From Bacteroidota bacterium (lineage in GTDB: Bacteria; Bacteroidota; Ignavibacteria; UBA10030; UBA8401): DNA of 64,000 nucleotides. Location: contig JAJYOK010000006.1 in NCBI GenBank assembly GCA_021796215.1, positions 64,201 to 128,200 on the forward strand. Direction: 5' to 3'. The notes under the pieces were generated by a model, which saw only the letters and a list, made by a program, of their open reading frames with translations, did not search any database and was not told the origin of the DNA. The translations under genes were made by a program, and so were the position numbers. Position 1 is the stretch's first letter; each line of letters starts with the position of its first letter. Shown in pieces: positions 9,445 through 55,945 of this stretch.

Positions 9445-11319
9445 TTACTTTCTGAGATGAATGGTAATGACGGAAATGTCTGAGTGTGTTACTCCCGAGA
9501 TACGAGATGCCTGCCCTATCGAACGCGGCCGAATGCGTTGCAGCCTGTCTTTCCCTTCATTGCTCAGCGACTTGATTGCAGTGAAATCAAAATCTTCAGG
9601 GATCTCAAATTCTTCAAATTTTGAAAAACGCACAATCTGTTCCCGCTCACGCCTGATGTAGCCTTCATATTTAATATCTATTTCAATTTGTTCTGCTACC
9701 AGGGCGTTCTTTAAAAAAGGTTTCTTTTTATCGTCAATCAGTGCAGCTAAATCCGAGAATGTAATGTTTGGTCTCTTAAGAATATTTGACATTCGCTCAT
9801 GTTCGGCAATCGTTGGTAATCCCTTTCGCTCGAGAAGTTGATTAACCGCTTTGGGAGAAATGAAAGTCGAATTTAAATATTCAATGCCAGCTTTGATTTC
9901 TTTTTCCTTAGCAGCAAGTTTTGAAATTGTCTCATTATTGATCAGTCCGAGCTGAAAGCCTTTTTTCATAAGTCTTCTGTCGGCGTTATCTTGACGAAGA
10001 ATTAACCGATGCTCTGCACGAGAAGTGAACATTCGGTACGGTTCGTCGGTAGATTTATTGATGAGGTCGTCAATCATAACGCCAATGTATGCTTCATCGC
10101 GTCGGAGTATAAACGGATCGAGATTCTTCACTTTCAAAGCGGCATTGATTCCTGCAACGAGTCCCTGCCCTGCTGCTTCTTCATAACCGGATGTCCCGTT
10201 TATTTGTCCGGCGAAAAAGAGTCCGGAAACAATTTTAGTCTCAAGTGTATGTTTGAGCTGATGCGGCGGAAAAAAATCATACTCGACAGCGTAACCAGCT
10301 CGCAGCATTTTCACATTTTCCAAGCCTGCGATTGATTGCAATCCTTCATACTGAATTTCTTCAGGCAAGCTTGTAGAGAATCCGTTTACATAAACAACGT
10401 TGGTGTTGTAACCTTCGGGCTCAAGAAAAATTTGATGGCGGTCTCGTTCGGCAAAGCGATGAATTTTATCTTCAATTGAAGGACAATAGCGCGGACCAAT
10501 TCCCTTGATTCTTCCCGTGAACATAGGCGAGCGGTCGAAACCTTTTTCCAAAATCTTATGCGTTCGTTTGTTCGTGTACGTCAAGTACATCAGAATCAGC
10601 CGGTTAGTAATTTTTTCATTTTGAAATGAAAATGGCGCCGGCGGATTGTCGCTTTCTTGAATTTCAACAGAAGAGAAATCTATACTACCAATATCAATTC
10701 GAGGTGGTGTCCCGGTTTTTAATCTTCCGGAGACAAATCCTAATTCTCGAAGAGACTCTGTTACACCGCGAGCAGGAGGCTCTCCAAATCTGCCGCCAGC
10801 CCTGTTTTTTAGACCGGTATGCATAAGCCCGTTCAAAAAAGTCCCCGCGCACAAAACCAGACTTTGGCAAAAAATTTCGTGGCTTGAAAACGTTCGGATG
10901 CCCTTTATGATAGCATTTTCCACTAAAACTTCCGCAACGGAATCTTCAAGCACATCAATACCATCTTGTTCGAAAATTCTTCTTTGAGCTTCCCTGGAAT
11001 ACCATTCGCGATCGTTCTGTGAACGAGGCGACCAGACGGCAGGGCCTTTTGATTTATTCAGCATCTTGAATTGAATGCCCGTTGTATCGGCAATCTTCCC
11101 CATCTCGCCGCCAAGAGCATCAATTTCTCGAACAATGTGTCCTTTTGCGGTTCCGCCAATGGCTGGGTTACACGACATTCTTCCAATGGAAGCAGCACTC
11201 AAAGAAATCAAAAGCGTGGAGCAGCCCATTCGCGCAGACGCAAGCGAAGCTTCTATTCCCGCATGCCCTCCGCCAATTACTATGACATCGTAGGATAATT
11301 TTGGAGGATTAACAACCAT
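9445..11319 (-). CDS. mnmG: tRNA U34 carboxymethylaminomethyl synthesis enzyme, FAD subunit
   Basis: 624 residues, typical for MnmG (GidA), which with MnmE modifies wobble U34 of certain tRNAs. The FAD-binding Rossmann loop is [28 protein letters not shown] carries one of the conserved cysteines, and [11 protein letters not shown] and [17 protein letters not shown] are family signatures. The C-terminal helical part ends with [18 protein letters not shown]. mnmE is immediately upstream in the same orientation with only 17 bases between them. That gap is almost entirely the second parS-like site. There is no obvious ribosome site, so coupling to mnmE translation is possible. Confidence 0.97.
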
Positions 11320-47016: not shown

Positions 47017-47104
47017 CCTATTTTCCGTCAATCACTTCCCGGATGCGCTTCACTATTGCTTCAGGTTCGTACGGCTTCTGCACAAAGTCTTTCGCGCCGC
47101 CTTT
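47017..47104. repeat. 88-bp direct repeat, left copy (displaced end of the hybrid kinase gene)
   Basis: Matches 55858-55945 at 87 of 88 positions in the same orientation; the single difference is A/G at 47030/55871. The copy encodes, on the minus strand, the last 28 codons and stop of the kinase (ending PEAIVKRIREVIDGK) but no more. It marks the left edge of the AT-rich island. This is the pattern left when an element integrates in the 3' end of a gene and restores it. Confidence 0.85.
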
Positions 47105-47292
47105 AGACGCCCCACTTTCTTGCGTTTGACAATTCACAGACAGGATTTTCTACCACTGGGAATTTTATCTGCGAATACTGTGCAATTAAGCAATTTTTTT
47201 GGCTCGAAACTTGTAAGCCGTGATAGCGGCAAAAGGTGGGACATTATTGCCATTTCAAATAGGATTACGGGCGTAATTCTTCGGAGGTAAAA

Positions 47293-47346
47293 ATGAGCAG
47301 TAAAAGCAAGCATTCTTATTTTAGCATTGGGGGGTGGCATGCATGA
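47293..47346 (+). CDS. 17-residue peptide with a strong ribosome site
   Basis: MSSKSKHSYFSIGGWHA. GGAGG lies five bases before the ATG, one of the best ribosome sites in the window. The frame overlaps the start of the AraC-type gene (ATG 47339) by eight bases. It could be a translation-coupling leader or a tiny signalling peptide; the Gly-Gly near the end is reminiscent of processed leaders, but that is weak. It could also be the first codons of a truncated gene. Confidence 0.35.
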   Translation: MSSKSKHSYFSIGGWHA

Positions 47347-47746
47347 GGAAAAAATAATCGCCATCGTAAGAAACAGATTTGCTGATTATCAATTTACTGT
47401 TGAGAAATTAGCAGAGGAGGCGGGAATAGGGGTGTCACACCTGAGAGAAAAAGTTCACCTTTATTATAAAATGTGTCCGCAGGAACTTATTGAAACAGTT
47501 CGGTTGGAAAATGCCCTGCGGCTTCTCTGCAAAAATCATGCACAAAGCCTTTATGACGTTATTCCGCAATGCGGCTATCGCTACGAGAGAACATTTCTTG
47601 ATGCGTTTGAGAAACGGTTGGGTGCAACGCCGACTGTATGCCGAAACGCTCTTTGTGCAAACGAAGCTAGGTTGAAAAACTGGATAGAGAAATTGTGGAT
47701 GAATGGACTAAACGGTTTGCCCACCGAAGAGCATTTTGGTTCGTAG
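47339..47746 (+). CDS. Stand-alone AraC-type helix-turn-helix protein
   Basis: 135 residues. The whole protein is about one AraC DNA-binding domain: FTVEKLAEEAGIGVSHLREK forms the first helix-turn-helix, and LYDVIPQCGYRYERTFLDAF with EKRLGATPTVCRN the second. There is no ligand-binding or receiver domain. It lies at the left end of the island, upstream of the radical SAM gene and in the same direction, and is the only regulator there. ATG at 47339 overlaps the upstream 17-codon frame. Confidence 0.75.
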   Translation: MHEEKIIAIVRNRFADYQFTVEKLAEEAGIGVSHLREKVHLYYKMCPQELIETVRLENALRLLCKNHAQSLYDVIPQCGYRYERTFLDAFEKRLGATPTVCRNALCANEARLKNWIEKLWMNGLNGLPTEEHFGS

Positions 47747-47840
47747 GTAGACGAAAACAACAGTTGATTTCCACCGTTGAATTTCGCAGGCGATATTCTC
47801 ACTTGCAAATAGCAGCAACTTGAATTACCATTGTTGAGCG

Positions 47841-47868
47841 TTGATCAAAAAATTACAATAGGTATAAT
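47841..47868 (+). promoter_or_regulatory. Sigma70-type promoter of the radical SAM / precursor operon
   Basis: TTGATC (47841-47846), 16 bases, perfect TATAAT (47863-47868). It lies 46 bases before the radical SAM start and is the clearest promoter inside the island. Confidence 0.7.
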
Positions 47869-47914
47869 GGAAAAACGCAGATTACACAGATTACATTGTA
47901 GGCTTGGTTGATAA

Positions 47915-49344
47915 ATGCGGACATCAAGTTATACTATTTTTGCTCAGATTCCAAGGTCGGAAGAGCAAATACTTGTTCATGGTTATACAGGGGCAATTGA
48001 TATTGTTTCACAAAGGCTCATAAGTAATTTGAAGGAAGAGAATTTTGGCGCATTAACTCCGAAAGAAATAGAGGTGTTAAGTAAGAGAGGTTACATTACA
48101 ACAAAAAGCAAGGAGGAAGAATATAAACGCGTTGAGTTGTTAGCGCGGCTATTTCATAAGAAAGCATCTCGATTTCATTTGTTCATGTTTCTTGTTTCCT
48201 ATGATTGTAATTTTCGCTGTCCCTATTGTTTTGAGTCAAGTATATCAGCGGCAGGAGAAAATTGGAGTGGTGAAACATTTACAAAGATATTAGTTGATGC
48301 AGCATATGAGGTGGTTGACAAAATAAATTTCACAAGTCCATGGAAAAGTCGAATTATTCTTTACGGTGGTGAACCTCTGCTTGTGAAGAACTCAAATATT
48401 GTTCACTACATTGTTGATAGTGGGTTGAAGCGCGGCTATAAATTTGGAGCGATCACCAATGGCTATGAAGTGGATTCTTATCAAGATATTATCGGTAAGG
48501 ACGCGGTCAATTTTTTGCAAATTAGTCTTGACGGCGGTTCTATAGTTCATAATAATCGTAGGAGACATTATACAGGAGAGGGCACATTTTATAAAATTTT
48601 TGAAAATATTTCCCTTGCATTAGAGTTGGGCGCTTTTGTTAATGTCCGTATCAATATTGATGAAAAAAACATCTCACAACTTTTTGATTTAGTAAAATTT
48701 ATTTTTTCGAACAAATTCAATGAACGATCAAACTTTCAGTGCTATATTTCTGTAGTTAGAAATTACAACGGAAATGTTTCATCCGAAAATATATCTGTAT
48801 GTAGCAACGGGCTTTGTGAAATCTTTCCGACGGTAAGCAAGCGCAAAGTTTTGAAATTCTTAGAAAGTTTTTTTCAAATACATCCAGAATTTTCATTTAT
48901 TCAGGGGCCAGACTACTGGCTAAAAAGCGAGATTAAGCATGTTATCCAAAGCCGAGGAGCACTCCAATTTCGCGGATCATTTTGCGGGGTCACAGGCGGA
49001 AACCAGATTTTCGATCCGCGTGGTGATATATATACCTGCTGGGGAGATGTTGGGAAGCGATCAGTTAGAATTGGGAGATTTTGGCCAGCATTGAGCTATG
49101 TTAAGGAACAATTGCAAGAATGGAAAGAAAGAACAATAACAAATCTGAGTATTTGTAGTAAGTGCAAATATGCTCTTTTCTGCGGCGGGGGTGCGGCGCA
49201 CTGGCAAAAGCAGAGTATAACACACTTAAGCACTCATTTTGTGATGAATATCCATTAATGTTTGTGAACAGCGTGCGCAAGGCGTATTTGGAATGTGTTT
49301 TACAGAAAGAAATCAGCATGTCTAACTATTCCTTTACAAAATAA
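47915..49344 (+). CDS. Radical SAM/SPASM peptide-modifying enzyme, frameshifted near the end
   Basis: An N-terminal peptide-binding-like region (PRSEEQILVHGYTGAIDIVS) leads into the radical SAM core: C98, C102 and C105 in YDCNFRCPYC bind the 4Fe-4S/SAM cluster, and GGEP follows. A SPASM region carries further Cys: FCGVTGG, YTCWGDVG, CSKCKYALFCGGG. The frame then runs into HWQKQ and stops at 49258. The +1 frame continues as CGALAKAEYNTLKHSF to 49344, giving the expected SPASM ending CGGGC. One G missing from the GGGGG at 49187-49191 explains this; restored length is 476 residues. It may be a true mutation, phase variation or a sequencing error. It probably modifies the peptide encoded next. 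Confidence 0.82.
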
Positions 49345-49442
49345 TATGTCAACCACCTAATTGATTATGATATTGGAAATGGTTACAAACAACATCAATG
49401 CGCTGGCATCATTTCATATTAAAGAAAGGAGGTGAGAAAATA

Positions 49443-49649
49443 ATGGACAAGGAAAAATCCTTGAAGATAAACGAAGAAAAACCATCAATAAAATCTCTCA
49501 ACGATCTTCTCTATGATAATGATTTATCAATTGAGGAATTAGAAGAGAGATTAGAATTAGATCCGTGGTTCTGTGGTGTTTATTGCAACGAAAACTCAGG
49601 GTGTAACCCCATAGGATGTAGCCCAATAGGATGTACCCAGGTAGCATAA
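49443..49649 (+). CDS. Cys-rich RiPP precursor-like peptide
   Basis: 68 residues from ATG at 49443, with an excellent AAAGGAGGTGA upstream. The acidic leader (about 1-40) has the amphipathic LSIEELEERLELDPW often seen in radical SAM/SPASM substrates. The core has five Cys at 44, 48, 54, 59 and 64 (C-x3-C-x5-C-x4-C-x4-C), with a tandem PIGC repeat: CNPIGCSPIGC. It begins 98 bases after the radical SAM gene. Thioether or other Cys-based crosslinks are plausible, but the chemistry is unknown. The leader/core cut site is not defined. Confidence 0.78.
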   Translation: MDKEKSLKINEEKPSIKSLNDLLYDNDLSIEELEERLELDPWFCGVYCNENSGCNPIGCSPIGCTQVA

Positions 49650-49710
49650 TCAGGTTTGCCTTCCCTTTGTTTTCTACAGCAATAATAATATCAAGCATGG
49701 CATTTACCCA

Positions 49711-49805
49711 AGAGCCTCTCTCCTTTTTTGACAGCACTTTTCAAGAGTTATTTTTTCATAGAGCTATATAGCTTAATATAAGAACAGTTATGAAAGAGAG
49801 GCTCT
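49711..49805 (+). promoter_or_regulatory. Long-range inverted repeat after the precursor gene
   Basis: AGAGCCTCTCT (49711-49721) pairs perfectly with AGAGAGGCTCT (49795-49805). A perfect palindrome AGCTATATAGCT (49762-49773) lies inside. It ends about 35 bases before the TPR gene. A partial terminator or RNA-processing site here would let the peptide be made in excess over the downstream proteins. No T-run of note follows the stem. Confidence 0.45.
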
Positions 49806-49839
49806 AATATTTTCATGGGTGATGAGAGGATTTGAAAAA

Positions 49840-51018
49840 ATGAAGCGGTTTTATTTCATCATAGTGATGTGGCTTGCTACTTTTTTTTCTTCAGGAGAAT
49901 TGGCGGGGCGACAAGTTGCTTCTGTAGCTGTTCCTAATGTTTACGTGGATAGTATCGAAACTGCAAAACGAGTGCTTTTTTTAACTTATAGCGAGCAATA
50001 TAATGAAGCTTTGGCTCTCGTTGAGAGAATGGCAGACGAGAATCCAAGTTCGATACAATGGAAGTATTTTCATGCAATAATATTGTGGAGGAAGCTACGA
50101 GTTCAAAGTTGGGCAACTGGGTATCACGATGAGGTGCTTGTAAATAGAATCGGCAATGAACTTCTTACTCTTAAAAAATTAATTGATGAGGTACCGGATA
50201 GTCTTCGTGCAAAGCCTTATTATTTATTTTATGCAGGTGCAATTTACGGGTATCTAGGTATGTATTATGCAGGCATAAGAGAAGAGAATTTAAAAGCAAT
50301 TAAGGTCGGGGGAGATGGGCTTAACTATTACAAAAAAATACTACAAATAGATACTACCTGTTATGACGCATATTACAGCTTTGGAGTTTATCATTTCTAC
50401 GCGAGTGATGCCCCATGGTATATCAAACCATTGCTTTGGGTATTCGGTGTGTCAGGTTCTGAAGAAAAAGCAGATACTTATTTAACTCTGGCTGCTAAGA
50501 AGAGCACTTTGGCTAAATATGAGGCTATGGAAATGTTAGCAGAGCTATATGTTAGAAGGAGATTGATTGATTCTGCTGTGATTGTATATCGGAAGCTAAT
50601 ACAAAAATTTCCCAGTGCTTATTATTATTACTTAAATCTAGGATGGGTGTATAAAAAGTTCCAGAGAATTGATGAAATGGCAAACGTTTATCAAGAAGGT
50701 GTTAATTATTCGAGAAAAACAGAAACAATAGAAGGAGATAAAGAATGTTTAAGCAACATATATCTCTTGCTAGGTTCTTATTATTCAAGGGTCAATAGAG
50801 TTAGAAAAGCGATTACTCTTTATCAGGATGGATTAGCAAGGAACCTAGGACACTTTGATTGGTGGTGTTATCGCATTGCATTGTGCTATGAAAAGCTCGG
50901 CGACAAAACACAAGCTATTTATTATTATAAGTTGATCCGCGGAGGTGAACTAACGACAGAAGAGATACAAAGGGTACAATCTCGTTTAAATGAGCTGGCA
51001 AAAGATTCCCAACAATAA
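49840..51018 (+). CDS. Exported TPR protein of the island
   Basis: 392 residues from ATG at 49840, chosen because it gives a clean signal peptide (MKRFYFIIVMWLATFFSSG); GTG at 49819 is the upstream alternative. The rest is TPR-like helical repeats, for example SEQYNEALALVERMADENPS, LIDSAVIVYRKLIQKFPSAY and VRKAITLYQDGLARNLGHFD. The family is unknown to me. Exported TPR proteins often act as scaffolds, so it might hold or transport the modified peptide in the periplasm; that is inference. Confidence 0.65.
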   Translation: MKRFYFIIVMWLATFFSSGELAGRQVASVAVPNVYVDSIETAKRVLFLTYSEQYNEALALVERMADENPSSIQWKYFHAIILWRKLRVQSWATGYHDEVLVNRIGNELLTLKKLIDEVPDSLRAKPYYLFYAGAIYGYLGMYYAGIREENLKAIKVGGDGLNYYKKILQIDTTCYDAYYSFGVYHFYASDAPWYIKPLLWVFGVSGSEEKADTYLTLAAKKSTLAKYEAMEMLAELYVRRRLIDSAVIVYRKLIQKFPSAYYYYLNLGWVYKKFQRIDEMANVYQEGVNYSRKTETIEGDKECLSNIYLLLGSYYSRVNRVRKAITLYQDGLARNLGHFDWWCYRIALCYEKLGDKTQAIYYYKLIRGGELTTEEIQRVQSRLNELAKDSQQ

Positions 51019-51054
51019 TTTTTTCGGAAATGTTTAAACTCTTGAGGGAATAGG

Positions 51055-53106
51055 ATGCTTTCTTTTGACGAAATGAAAGAAAAATGTTTTCGTAGTTTTG
51101 AAGAGTCGATTCATGATATTAAGAAAACGGACATGGCGCCTAGCGATGTCCAAATGGGCGAGATTCAGAAATTAAAAGGTAACTTCTATGTAGCATATCC
51201 ATTTCTTTTCGAGTCACATTATACAAACATTGATAAAGAAGCTCTCGAGAAGTTGGCACTAGCAGGAAATATCTATTTCACTTATTTGCTAACTTTTGAT
51301 GAACTTTTTGACGGAGATGCAAAATCATCGGCCATTGTGGTTGCACATCTGCTTCATGAACATGCTATTAATTTATTATATGAAATGTTCCCAGCGCAAT
51401 CACCTTTTTGGAGCCTTTTTAAAAAGTACGAGAATGAATTTCTTTGTTCTGTTACCAGAGAATACAATGCTATTAAAAAAATAATGGAGGGAAAGTATAT
51501 TGATGATAACGATCTAATAATGATGGTGAGAAACAGAAGCTCTTTTGCAAAGTGCGCTACGGCGGGACTGTGGGTGCTGTCAGGTTGCAAGGGAGAGTCA
51601 AATGCATTCGACAAAACTCAAGAGTTTTTTCATGTTGGGCTCCAGATGCTAGACGATTTGAAAGATTGGAAAGATGATTACAGAAAAAAACGGCCATCAT
51701 ATCTTCTTTCTTTAGCCCTTTCTGATGAACGCATTCTGGAAGCATTGAATAGAGCGCAATCAGACGATTATGGAGTTTTAGGTAGAGGAATTTATTATTC
51801 TGGTATTGCTGAAAATCTTCTGCAAACGGCCAAGAACTTCTTCATAGATGCGCTTAAATCTTGTGAGCCTTATAATGTTCCACAATGGAAAATGTTAGTG
51901 GAGAACCATATTAAGGAAATTACCAATGCATGTAATGATCTAAGGGAAACTAAACTTTGGTTGCTAGAAAAACGGGAAAAAGTAAGAATAATTCATTCTG
52001 GGAAAGCTAGATCTTCTCCAAACATGGTAGGTTTAATTGCAAATACACCATACAGACAAACACTTCTGCGAGGGCTCTCCTTTCTACAAATAGAACAGAA
52101 ACACGACTATCCAGAGATGACTCATAGGATGGCATTGCCAAGATTTGATAAAAATAATTCCGGCAACAGTTTCGTAGTATGTAGCAACTTATTCCAAAGA
52201 ACAGTTGTGCTTGATATTTTCATTGATCTCAAAAGGCTGTTAAACGGTGCTGTCGACAAGAAAATTATTTCAGCAGAGTTATCTATCTTAGAAACTTCCA
52301 AAGCTAGATTGGTTCGCGGCGGATGGAGTTACTTTCCAAATTATCCATGGTTACCACCTGACGCTGATGACTTAGCACAAATGATACAAATATTTGTCAA
52401 AACAGCACACCCGCGCATTCACGAGCTCGTAGAGGAACCAATTAAACTTTTAATTGATTCAAACCGTTTTCCCGATGGAACTTTTCGCACGTGGATTCTT
52501 GATCCAAACGATAACAGCGAAATTCAACAAGTGCTTAAAAAAACTGTGGAAACTCATTGGGGCGAACGTTACGGTAAAGATATAGAAGTCACAACAAACA
52601 TGTTGTACGCTTTATTGGTTTATAATAAGGAGAGATATCATACTATCATAAGTAAAGGTATAGCAGCGGTGTTAGCGGCTCAAGCTCCAAATGGTTTATG
52701 GCACAGTGGTTGGTATTGGGGTCCTTTTTATGGAACTTACGTTGCCACTCGATTACTTTCGTCCTCAAGATTTAAAACCGAAAGTTTGCAAATTACAAAA
52801 GACTATTTGATAAATAATCAGCATAACGATGGAGGGTGGGGGTACCGACAAAGTGATCCACTTAACACAGCTCTGTCAATTTTGACTCTCAAGAATATTG
52901 AAGATGCCAACCATGTAATTAGTCATGAAATTTATGAGCGAGCAATTTCTTATTTATCCAGTGAGCAAAAGGTTGCAGGTTCGTGGAGGCAAGTTCCATT
53001 TATAAAGATGTTAATTGGCAGGAAAGAAATAACATATCAAAGTGAAACGATTACAACAGCATATGTTCTTAAAGCACTGGCAAGTATAATGTTTTTTATG
53101 AAATAA
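51055..53106 (+). CDS. Two-domain terpenoid enzyme: class I prenyl/terpene synthase fused to class II cyclase
   Basis: 683 residues. The N-terminal half is all-helical with two Asp-rich motifs of class I isoprenoid enzymes: DELFDGD (82-88) and QMLDDLKDWKDD (197-208), the latter like the QxxDDxxD second motif of prenyl diphosphate synthases. The C-terminal half has the class II acid motif DADD (436-439) and three squalene-cyclase QW repeats: QAPNGLW (543-549), QHNDGGW (589-595) and QKVAGSW (638-644). It may build a prenyl diphosphate and protonate-cyclise it. No signal peptide. GAGGG precedes the ATG. Product unknown. Confidence 0.75.
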   Translation: MLSFDEMKEKCFRSFEESIHDIKKTDMAPSDVQMGEIQKLKGNFYVAYPFLFESHYTNIDKEALEKLALAGNIYFTYLLTFDELFDGDAKSSAIVVAHLLHEHAINLLYEMFPAQSPFWSLFKKYENEFLCSVTREYNAIKKIMEGKYIDDNDLIMMVRNRSSFAKCATAGLWVLSGCKGESNAFDKTQEFFHVGLQMLDDLKDWKDDYRKKRPSYLLSLALSDERILEALNRAQSDDYGVLGRGIYYSGIAENLLQTAKNFFIDALKSCEPYNVPQWKMLVENHIKEITNACNDLRETKLWLLEKREKVRIIHSGKARSSPNMVGLIANTPYRQTLLRGLSFLQIEQKHDYPEMTHRMALPRFDKNNSGNSFVVCSNLFQRTVVLDIFIDLKRLLNGAVDKKIISAELSILETSKARLVRGGWSYFPNYPWLPPDADDLAQMIQIFVKTAHPRIHELVEEPIKLLIDSNRFPDGTFRTWILDPNDNSEIQQVLKKTVETHWGERYGKDIEVTTNMLYALLVYNKERYHTIISKGIAAVLAAQAPNGLWHSGWYWGPFYGTYVATRLLSSSRFKTESLQITKDYLINNQHNDGGWGYRQSDPLNTALSILTLKNIEDANHVISHEIYERAISYLSSEQKVAGSWRQVPFIKMLIGRKEITYQSETITTAYVLKALASIMFFMK

Positions 53107-53111
53107 AATTT

Positions 53112-54428
53112 ATGGCAAAGTTACACAATCATGAAAACAAACGTGTAAAACTTAATAATGATATGTTTCCAGACCGCCTCGTGCCTAATTTATTGAATGA
53201 GATTGAAATTGTTCCAATGGATACCGCCTTTCACCCTTCGAGATATTTGGTCAAAGCTGGAGAAGGGAAAAATTTAGAAATATCTGAGACCTACTATCAT
53301 CTTATAGGTTTAATAGATGGTAAACGTTCCGTTGAAGAAATTTCCATTGAACTAAAAGAAAAATTCAGCATAGATATCCCCCCCCATGAAATTAAAAGAA
53401 TAATAGAAACCTCATTGGTTTCAAGCGGTATAGCGAAATCCGATCTCAACGGAAGAAAGACCACCCATTCAAGATCATACTTGAGCTACAAACATCCGTT
53501 ACTATTACAAAGATCTTTGCTTCCATTTACAAAGATGCTACAAATCCTTTTTGAAAAGCACCTATTTACTTTCCTTGTAAGCGTAGCCCTTGTGTTTGAG
53601 ATACTCTTCTATTTCGTATTTCGGGATCCCTTGATATCAATAATAAAGATTTCAGGAAACGACTTGATTATTAGTTATATAGTTTTCTTTCTATCTTCAC
53701 TGTTTCATGAACTTGGACACTTGTCGGCCTGCCAACGTTATGGCGCCTTATACAAGGAGATGGGAATCGGTATCTATTTTTATTTCCCTGTATTTTACTC
53801 TGATGTCACAGATGCATGGAAATTAAAGCGGAAACAGCGTGCGGTAGTAGACTTTGGAGGTGTTTACTTTCAACTTTTATTACTTCCCTTTTTGCAGGTG
53901 CTTCATGTTATAACAGGCAGCGCCGCATTTATATTTGTCATTTATTTTTTGAATCTAAACATCGCAGCTACACTAAATCCCTTTTTGAGATTTGATGGAT
54001 ATTGGCTTTTGTCTGATTTGCTGGGGGTACCTAACCTTAGAAAGAGATCGAAGGAAATGGTTACTTATTGGAGTGCTAGTATATTTCGAAAGAGAGCTAA
54101 AAAGCCATATTTTATGTCAAAACTTCAGGAACGAACACTTTATTATCTTTTCACATATACAATTGTCTGTAATATATTTTTTATTTTTTTTGCTATAAGA
54201 TTGCTTGATCAATTCACACTTGCTATGTTTTCGTATCACGCGTTGATTAATGATGTTGCGGTATCCTATAGAGAAGGGGTCGGAGCGTTTTTCTCTTCTA
54301 TTACTAAATTCTTTTTTGTGAATTTCATAATATTTTCGGTAGGTCTAATGATTTCGCGTTGGTTGTGGGGGGTAGCGAATCGAATCATAACAGTCGCCAA
54401 GAGAATGCGAATGGTAAATTACTCGTGA
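53112..54428 (+). CDS. PqqD-like domain fused to M50 membrane metalloprotease
   Basis: 438 residues. An N-terminal PqqD/RRE-like winged helix (about 50-110: YYHLIGLIDGKRSVEEISIE) is the fold that binds RiPP leader peptides. A site-2-protease domain follows, with the zinc motif HELGH (199-203) in a membrane helix and the third ligand in NPFLRFDG (289-296); six or more hydrophobic segments are seen. B. subtilis YydH in the epipeptide cluster is a comparable M50 protein. It could cleave the leader or release the modified peptide at the membrane. It begins six bases after the terpenoid gene. Confidence 0.8.
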   Translation: MAKLHNHENKRVKLNNDMFPDRLVPNLLNEIEIVPMDTAFHPSRYLVKAGEGKNLEISETYYHLIGLIDGKRSVEEISIELKEKFSIDIPPHEIKRIIETSLVSSGIAKSDLNGRKTTHSRSYLSYKHPLLLQRSLLPFTKMLQILFEKHLFTFLVSVALVFEILFYFVFRDPLISIIKISGNDLIISYIVFFLSSLFHELGHLSACQRYGALYKEMGIGIYFYFPVFYSDVTDAWKLKRKQRAVVDFGGVYFQLLLLPFLQVLHVITGSAAFIFVIYFLNLNIAATLNPFLRFDGYWLLSDLLGVPNLRKRSKEMVTYWSASIFRKRAKKPYFMSKLQERTLYYLFTYTIVCNIFFIFFAIRLLDQFTLAMFSYHALINDVAVSYREGVGAFFSSITKFFFVNFIIFSVGLMISRWLWGVANRIITVAKRMRMVNYS

Positions 54429-54438
54429 TAGTAATCTC

Positions 54439-55230
54439 ATGAAAAAGATGAAACGGATAATTTTTCTAATTAAAGAGCGTGTGGTGTATGCTGTTATCTT
54501 TTTTTCATTGTCTTTTACATTTTTAGTTCTTGGAGCACGGTTCATATCGAGATCTGCTATAACCGAAGGGCGTTTAAAAGGCGAAAAATTTTTTATTGTG
54601 CTGAACAACATTAATGAAAACGAAAGAGAAATAGTCGAGACCTGCAAGGTTAGCGGGGTAAACCCGCGCATTTTGGGGGCAGCTATCTACTCCGAACGTG
54701 CTTTGAACTACTTGCCTGTTTTTGAAAACATCTTTTCGTTTGCATTTGGCCAAAGTCTTGGCTTTTCTCAAGTAAATATGAATGCTCTGGCGTGGGCACT
54801 CAAAATGCTTTGGCTTCCAACTCAAGATGATAGCATACGATACATTTTGAAGCATGAATCCGAATTTAGCCGGCTCAGAAGATATTTTAGCAAATATCAA
54901 AGGTATAAATTATGGCAATTGAAATTAGAGCTGTGGCGTAATCAAAAGTTTAACATCGCTTGCTCTGCACTTGTATTAAAACTCACCATGATTCGTTATG
55001 CAACAAGTGAAAATGGATTTGATGTATCAAACAATCCAGCTATAGCTTCCACATTATACCATATCAAGTTTCCGCAAAGAATAACTGGTAATTCGGATGA
55101 ATGGGGCAGGCTTTCGGAGAAAATTTTCTTTGATAAACATTTCATGCCAACGACAACATATATGATTTCTGAAGCAGGCACTTCCTCAAGTATATGGGCC
55201 CATAAAAATGAAATGGGGAAAATTCAATAG
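54439..55230 (+). CDS. Membrane-anchored lysozyme/transglycosylase-like protein
   Basis: 263 residues. One N-terminal membrane helix (VVYAVIFFSLSFTFLVLGA), then an outside domain. NPRILGAAIYSERALNY and FGQSLGFSQVNMNALAW resemble the catalytic-Glu and GxxQ segments of SLT-type lytic transglycosylases. The match is by pattern only. It starts ten bases after the M50 gene. Together with the NlpC/P60 remnant that overlaps its end, it suggests a cell-wall step, perhaps passage or immunity for the peptide. Confidence 0.5.
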   Translation: MKKMKRIIFLIKERVVYAVIFFSLSFTFLVLGARFISRSAITEGRLKGEKFFIVLNNINENEREIVETCKVSGVNPRILGAAIYSERALNYLPVFENIFSFAFGQSLGFSQVNMNALAWALKMLWLPTQDDSIRYILKHESEFSRLRRYFSKYQRYKLWQLKLELWRNQKFNIACSALVLKLTMIRYATSENGFDVSNNPAIASTLYHIKFPQRITGNSDEWGRLSEKIFFDKHFMPTTTYMISEAGTSSSIWAHKNEMGKIQ

Positions 55231-55816
55231 GTTAATAGAGAAATATATCTGGTTAGAGCAATCCTCTGTAGAATTTTCCTGTGAATCAGTTAGCCCAAGT
55301 AAGTGGATTGAAATCTTTCTTTGAATATTAATTCTCCTGCCAACTGGATTTTCAGGAGATAAACTCTCAGTAATTAAAAGATGTACTTTAAGTAATCAAG
55401 TTACCTTTTGTGCGCATGATTTTGCAGTTTCAAAAGTCGGTTTGGAATATTTCTGGGGAGGGAACGGTCCAGACTGTTTTGATTGTTCTGGGCTTATCTG
55501 TTGGGCGTACAGGGAAGTAGATTCATCAATTCAGTTTGAAACCCGAATTGGATTATCGCCATGTGCAACGATGCAAGATATCTATGCCTATAACGTTCAG
55601 CTAATCAGTCGGTCTCGGGTAAAATCTGGAGATATAGAGTTTTTATAACTTCGGATTCAAGCAAGATCTCACATGGGGGGCTTTTTGATTGGGTCCGACA
55701 GATTTAACTATGTCAATGCATCTTCATACTATGGCAAAGTATTGATTGACAGTTTTTCAGTATCGGGTTCGATGACGGGTCTGTGGCTTGTGGGGTTCGG
55801 ACGACTGTTGCGTTGA
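55208..55816 (+). pseudogene. NlpC/P60 (C40) endopeptidase, interrupted by two stop codons
   Basis: One continuous frame carries all the landmarks of a C40 peptidase: EYFWGGNGPDCFDCSGLICW with the catalytic Cys, VKSGDIEF, then SHMGGFLIGSDRF with the catalytic His, and VGFGRLLR at the end. It is broken by TGA at 55322-55324 and TAA at 55646-55648. No frameshift is needed. The N-terminal part before the first stop is poorly defined and overlaps the transglycosylase-like gene. Probably non-functional. Confidence 0.6.
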
Positions 55817-55857
55817 GCTATGAATATTCAACTGGCAGTTAGATAAATTTTTCACTA

Positions 55858-55945
55858 CCTATTTTCCGTCGATCACTTCCCGGATGCGCTTCACTATTGC
55901 TTCAGGTTCGTACGGCTTCTGCACAAAGTCTTTCGCGCCGCCTTT
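55858..55945. repeat. 88-bp direct repeat, right copy (3' end of hybrid kinase gene)
   Basis: Right partner of 47017-47104, one mismatch. It contains the last codons and stop of the intact kinase gene (minus strand) and defines the right edge of the island. Confidence 0.85.

Follow-up and report, generated by a model that had tools for sequence, protein, structure and literature searches.

The open reading frame at positions 49443 to 49649 of the window (the whole 64,000-nucleotide stretch of DNA analysed here, to which all coordinates without a locus name refer) encodes a 68-residue peptide with a Cys-rich C-terminus, and raises the questions of whether it is a gene and of what its product becomes. 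The first-pass annotation had proposed a RiPP precursor peptide with Cys-based crosslinks installed by an adjacent radical SAM enzyme. The explanation that best fits the locus, to which we assign a probability of about two in three, is that Trp42 of this precursor would receive a cyclised isoprenoid, that the radical SAM enzyme would act on its Cys residues, and that an M50 metalloprotease would cut off the leader. The precursor, its neighbouring genes and their parts all lie on the forward strand.

A precursor family with a conserved leader and a variable core

Translation of 49443..49649 gives MDKEKSLKINEEKPSIKSLNDLLYDNDLSIEELEERLELDPWFCGVYCNENSGCNPIGCSPIGCTQVA, in which Cys 44, 48, 54, 59 and 64 form the pattern C-x3-C-x5-C-x4-C-x4-C and include the stretch CNPIGCSPIGC, as originally described. 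The listed ORF has an alternative start at 49398; the ATG at 49443 is placed 7 nt after a Shine-Dalgarno sequence, AAGGAGGTGA (49426..49435), and this is the sole perfect copy of the 10-mer in the 64 kb window, in keeping with the strong ribosome site reported earlier. Of the 691 ORFs of 30 aa or more in the window, one has the Cys pattern, and 20 shuffled versions of the window yielded none with it. Since five Cys within 21 residues are not in themselves rare (12 window ORFs), we regard conservation as a family as the decisive evidence that this ORF is a gene.

The radical SAM alignment, run against 84,980 species, picked out 80 loci. A precursor with the conserved leader was found in approximately 45 of these, nearly always directly downstream of the radical SAM gene, giving about 50 precursors from at least eight phyla. 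Family members occur in Ignavibacteria, Melioribacteraceae, Bacteroides, Phocaeicola, Paraprevotella, Prevotella, Tannerella, Balneola, Saprospiraceae and Ferruginibacter, and in Microcystis, Cyanothece, Armatimonadota, Acidobacteriota, Chloroflexales, Polyangium and Schekmanbacteria. In genomes of the same class as the window, each radical SAM orthologue is followed directly by a small ORF that shares the leader and has a short core of unrelated sequence; in genome G040 orthologue and precursor are on separate contigs. A search with the precursor alone in 60 relatives returned mostly noise, with a single real match (L012), and one candidate (L010, genome G052) was rejected as lying inside an outer-membrane protein gene in another frame.

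The family leader motif, LN..L...SIEELEERLEL, is conserved and the core is hypervariable, both among 10 homologues and across the approximately 50 precursors. Conserved columns are L19, N20, S29, L33, E34, R36, L37 and E38 (alignment A2), and N20, L33, E34 and R36 are invariant in a 33-sequence alignment (A5). In the window peptide the leader comprises residues 1-39 (49443..49559; LN..L...LSIEELEERLEL) and the core residues 40-68 (49560..49646; DPWFCGVYCNENSGCNPIGCSPIGCTQVA), the part that is hypervariable in all alignments. The acidic segment ELEERLELDPW, originally assigned to the leader as a whole, is thus a leader motif as far as LEL39; DPW belongs to the core, because the motif stops at LEERLEL39. 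The reading as a RiPP precursor was borne out by the conserved leader, the variable core, the adjacent maturase and a leader-binding partner described below.

The regular Cys repeat fared less well. The segment NPIGC-SPIGC is encoded by a 15-bp tandem duplication (49605..49634), the two copies of which (49605-49619 and 49620-49634) differ at two positions. PIGC was sought in all other family precursors and was absent from every one, and Cys-bearing cores of the family contain from 1 to 15 Cys, those such as TCGQYTPASPEEAI having one. As neither PIGC nor Cys number is conserved, we rejected the repeat as a family hallmark: the tandem PIGC is a local 15-bp duplication, and the repeated Cys spacing is a local feature. 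Equal Cys spacing is seen in relatives with other sequences, as x4 pairs in L056, L061 and L075 and as heptads in two Prevotella precursors (L076:10348-10584 and L081:10354-10611), where C-x6 recurs perfectly four to five times in a clearer repeat than that of the window. In a Ruminococcus locus (L089:6423-9110), about 12 tandem precursor ORFs with cores of the SCTGNGCAGNACGA type lie between the radical SAM and M50 genes.

The window precursor matched no model in Pfam or NCBIfam. The same collections gave scattered weak matches for 33 family precursors and no SCIFF model match for any, in agreement with the earlier remark that the Cys pattern fits neither SCIFF nor classical sactipeptides. 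The leader motif is a search handle for a large precursor family that has no Pfam or NCBIfam model and is represented in Bacteroides, Phocaeicola and Prevotella common in the human gut.

Neighbouring enzymes on a low-GC island

The cluster lies on an 8.75 kb island (47105-55857) bounded by 88-bp direct repeats at 47017..47104 and 55858..55945, which differ by one mismatch and represent the final codons of a hybrid sensor kinase gene, the right copy being the 3' end of that gene. GC content is 37% in the cluster and 47-49% in the flanks, and a genome of the same genus (G002) has an uninterrupted site with a single repeat copy. The cluster probably entered this genome as a small island. The island has no recognised integrase, the 64 kb window has no tRNA gene, and no plasmid matched the locus.

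Upstream of the precursor, 47915..49258 encodes a radical SAM/SPASM peptide maturase, 447 aa as read (Pfam Radical_SAM, 2.1e-12). The CX3CX2C Cys (C98, C102, C105) are invariant in the orthologue alignment (A1), the N-terminus is conserved (YTI..HGYTGA.D), and orthologues from same-class genomes are approximately 33-44% identical. The first-pass reading of this enzyme as the partner of the precursor was supported, its gene being a conserved neighbour across the precursor loci. The closest models to it were CefB (NF038107, 108.4 bits against a cut-off of 600), TIGR04463 (101 bits) and PapB (NF047865, 91.7 against 340), with the SCIFF maturase model TIGR03974 at 62.9 bits against 425, and the closest solved structure was CteB (5wgg, E 3e-27). 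By analogy with these models and CteB, our best guess is that its chemistry at Cys is a thioether linkage. Radical SAM matches in G006, G007 and G014 were set aside; in these genomes, from the window's own family, a distinct radical SAM/SPASM family (L024-L026, L030-L032) adjoins an arsM-like methyltransferase and thioredoxin-reductase fusion.

The reading frame of the window enzyme is lost in its SPASM domain. Where orthologues read FCGGGC...CD, the window reads FCGGGAAHWQ..., so that the last two conserved SPASM Cys, which the orthologues keep, are missing from the window copy; comparison with intact orthologues placed both, with the rest of the C-terminus, in another frame at 49162..49344. 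The frameshift maps to approximately 49185-49195, at a run of five G, and intact copies occur in relatives. Because of this position, sequencing error and true mutation are both possible. The window gene may be dead, in which case the Cys may be unmodified in this strain.

The most constant further neighbour of the precursor and radical SAM genes is an M50 (site-2-type) metalloprotease (53112..54428), which we presume to be the leader peptidase. Its motif H199-E-L-G-H203 has the HExxH residues H199, E200 and H203 invariant. The model of this protein (pLDDT 83.6) matched SpoIVFB (Z 10.0), RseP (9.5) and the M. jannaschii S2P (8.8), and its N-terminal RRE/PqqD-like domain (residues 25-111) matched TbiB1 in complex with a leader (Z 8.7 over 81 residues) and PqqD (7.2); all of these are moderate Z values, and those of the RRE matches are hardly above the scores of unrelated winged-helix domains. 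Weak PqqD sequence matches agree with the RRE-like fold. As a predicted leader-binding membrane protease, this protein is a natural candidate for leader removal.

Between the precursor and the next enzyme gene, 49819..51018 encodes a TPR protein (Pfam TPR) with an N-terminal signal-like segment, a gene kept in the cluster only in same-class relatives (L049, L050, L063, L066, L079, L080 and L044). At the left end of the island, outside the conserved core, an AraC-type HTH protein (47327..47746; Pfam HTH_18, 2.2e-14) is a possible regulator. The right end (54439-55648) holds a 263-aa ORF (54439-55230) with a signal-like N-terminus, which is not conserved in related clusters, and an NlpC/P60 fragment. 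The window cluster contains no exporter.

The broken SPASM frame and the downstream NlpC/P60 fragment could be taken as signs of a partly decayed island in which the frameshift is real and the doubly modified product is no longer made. However, the precursor, TPR and protease genes and the fused enzyme gene described below are all open with their motifs intact, and sequencing commonly miscounts a G run by one base. We consider decay unlikely, if still a serious contender.

A predicted fused prenyltransferase-cyclase that tracks with Trp

The gene at 51055..53106 encodes a 683-aa protein overlooked by the first-pass annotation, which had paired a precursor peptide with a radical SAM enzyme. Its AlphaFold model (pLDDT 86.7), fold matches and a profile match to solved cyclases indicate a fusion of a prenyltransferase (P) and a terpene cyclase (C), hereafter PC. 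The P domain (residues 1-290; 51055..51924) has a trans-prenyl-diphosphate-synthase fold (3n3d, Z 24.1, rmsd 2.9, 280 residues aligned), with D82xxxD86, Q197 and D200 D201 xx D204 xxx D208. The C domain (residues 329-683; 52039..53103) is modelled as a monodomain class II terpene cyclase (8paj_B, Z 33.7; MstE 6sbd, Z 30.8, rmsd 2.8, 309 residues aligned) and carries a catalytic-acid motif of the DxDD type, D436-A-D438-D. Identity of this toroid domain as a protein farnesyltransferase was considered and dropped because of its DxDD motif and its class II cyclase matches. No ComQ-named match came up in the Pfam and NCBIfam scans, in which a model for the ComQ family (IPR033965) may or may not be represented. 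By the published description of ChrPC, the protein is, as modelled, a ChrPC-type fused prenyltransferase-cyclase.

Homologues of PC are present in 15 other loci. The seven P-domain residues (D82, D86, Q197, D200, D201, D204 and D208) are kept in 14 of 15 aligned proteins and D438 in 12 of 13 fusion proteins, with the fourth DxDD position variable. The PC protein of locus L092 has lost five of the seven and the catalytic acid as well. This degenerate protein (L092:11105-13237, Petrocella sp.) lies beside a precursor at 10388-10591 and may now be a scaffold.

The codon of Trp42 (49566..49568), the predicted isoprenoid acceptor, lies near the end of the leader, and Trp in this position tracks the PC enzyme. 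With a 12-residue window and locus classes that were chosen after the data had been seen, and with loci that are related by descent though drawn from several phyla, Trp was found within 12 residues after the leader motif in 15/15 loci with intact P and C domains and in 4/29 others (Fisher p 1.7e-8). Addition of L122 (PC present, core AWISCVAKS) and of L078 and L089 (neither PC fusion nor Trp) gave 16/16 loci with an apparently active PC and 4/31 others (p 3e-9). The loci with an early Trp and no detected PC fusion were L066, L074, L077 and L096. In L092, where the PC catalytic residues are mostly lost, the precursor has three Cys and no Trp.

Distant precursor relatives also occur in clusters that contain no radical SAM gene, among them peptides devoid of Cys (L141, L147), so that observations which the first-pass annotation had named as speaking against its reading, namely homologues without Cys or without a radical SAM neighbour, were made in part. 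In the four PC loci without a radical SAM neighbour (L141, L143, L144 and L147, the last with P and C parts in two adjacent genes), all nine precursors have Trp and three have no Cys, and their leaders are of the same type as that of the window (QVEELEKRYEM). Together with L092, this pattern indicates that Trp goes with PC and Cys-richness with the radical SAM enzyme, and that the precursor Trp is conserved because PC is a partner. In L141 (7319-8364), six tandem Trp-bearing precursors precede the PC gene, and this cluster is probably of the ChrPC type itself.

These distributions bear on whether PC acts on the peptide at all. No neighbour is as constant as the radical SAM gene, whose nearest models are maturases of thioether or Cys-rich peptides and whose nearest solved structure is CteB, and many Bacteroidales loci contain radical SAM and M50 genes and no PC enzyme; this would be expected of a ranthipeptide- or sactipeptide-like product with repeated Cys crosslinks, made by the radical SAM enzyme alone while PC produces a separate terpene. 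Against this, Trp co-occurs with PC across phyla and is missing where PC is degenerate, PC clusters without a radical SAM gene share the leader type, and PC has the Gln that marks Trp prenyltransferases, making such a division of labour improbable. Still less probable is that PC prenylates Cys, with Trp a mere adjacent recognition residue: Trp lies within two residues of the first Cys in all loci with both radical SAM and PC genes, and P-only relatives have precursors with Cys and mostly no Trp, but three precursors of the radical-SAM-free PC clusters have no Cys, and all characterised trans-IDS-like peptide prenyltransferases use a Trp acceptor (PMC13290415). The P domain may have other acceptors, since its active site is the same in the P-only relatives L027, L078 and L084, whose precursors lack Trp. 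The cores of these stand-alone P clusters are of a C-x-I-N type (CYCAINLC, GCYINSC and GCGINYFC).

Proposed maturation and comparison with known systems

Modification of Trp42 by PC and of Cys by the radical SAM enzyme is thus our preferred reading, built on the gene and its family, the conserved neighbours, the predicted folds of PC and the protease, the catalytic residues, and the way in which Trp follows PC. The leader segment LSIEELEERLEL would dock the peptide on the radical SAM enzyme, PC and the protease. With a polyprenyl diphosphate as donor, the P domain would prenylate the indole of Trp42; protonation and cyclisation of the attached chain by the C domain would leave a polycyclic isoprenoid next to the first Cys. 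The target of the radical SAM/SPASM enzyme would be the Cys-bearing core, where thioether links are its most likely product, and the M50 protease, binding the leader through its PqqD-like domain, would remove it at the membrane. We infer each of these chemical steps and their order, as well as the chain length, linkage type, cleavage site, export route and role of the product.

Other clusters of the family carry a different module. In the single-Cys clusters L066, L079 and L080, from the same taxonomic class as the window, the PC gene is replaced by one for a lipid A acyltransferase-like protein that carries a PqqD domain at its C-terminus, and L044 has the lipid A acyltransferase domain alone in place of PC. 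These proteins (L066:2449-3630, L079:3522-4664, L080:3281-4438 and L044:2516-3619) occur in clusters with small cores and are possible peptide acyltransferases; the 380-aa proteins of the single-Cys clusters had been considered as prenyltransferases, a reading rejected on their Pfam matches to lipid A acyltransferase and PqqD. This suggests that a lipid-like group may commonly be attached, by terpene or acyl modules that replace each other. We tentatively propose a single leader-defined RiPP superfamily spanning many phyla, gut Bacteroides included, in which radical SAM chemistry on Cys might be combined with exchangeable lipid-type modules (a Trp-directed PC, a prenyltransferase alone or a PqqD-fused lipid-A-type acyltransferase), the window product perhaps being a Cys-crosslinked, cyclised-terpene hybrid peptide. 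If so, terpene and radical SAM chemistry would be joined on one short, genetically simple substrate, in a product type for which we found no description in the literature searched. Natural clusters with either module alone would allow clean experimental dissection.

The first descriptions of ribosomal peptides with cyclised terpene chains date from 2024, and the idea of a terpene-RiPP is not new: ChrPC and NctPC are already covered in a 2026 review (PMC13290415). As described there, the ChrPC system (Hubrich et al. 2024, Chem 10:3224) employs a fusion in which a trans-IDS-like P domain uses C10-C20 donors to prenylate an internal Trp of the RiPP and a C domain cyclises the group so attached; in the related fusion NctPC the C domain is MstE-like and the P fold differs; and trans-IDS-like Trp prenyltransferases have in common a Gln that immediately precedes the second Asp-rich motif. 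The window enzyme shares with ChrPC, which we compared by description only, the fused trans-IDS-like P and cyclase C domains, the internal precursor Trp, the Gln before the second Asp-rich motif (SARM) and the MstE-like cyclase fold, whereas the window cluster adds a radical SAM/SPASM gene and a Cys-rich core. Each kind of modification is known separately and their combination seems to be new; no description of a Trp terpene paired with radical SAM chemistry was found in the open literature searched, which did not include the primary ChrPC paper.

MstE resembles the C domain in fold and catalytic-acid motif, and the ligands named in the titles of 6sbc-6sbg show that the prenyl chain which it cyclises is borne by an aromatic ring from the outset. 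In contrast to the window protein, it is a free-standing enzyme with a small aromatic substrate rather than a peptide, and identity is 15%. ComQ/ComX and PalQ/PalX likewise pair an isoprenoid-synthase-superfamily enzyme with prenylation of a ribosomal-peptide Trp, internal in ComX and terminal in PalX, but lack a cyclase domain, have no radical SAM enzyme described and use different precursors.

The CefB (Cys at every fifth position), PapB and SCIFF maturases are like the window enzyme in their radical SAM and SPASM domains and Cys-rich precursors, although the window enzyme scores far under the cut-offs and the precursors of its family match no model. The daptide and epipeptide (YydH/LiaK) M50 proteases are similarly intramembrane HExxH proteases in RiPP clusters. 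The window protease, at 117 bits against a cut-off of 300 for the daptide model (NF041824) and 56 of 225 bits for the epipeptide model, is a relative of these rather than a member, and is distinguished by its PqqD-like N-terminal domain.
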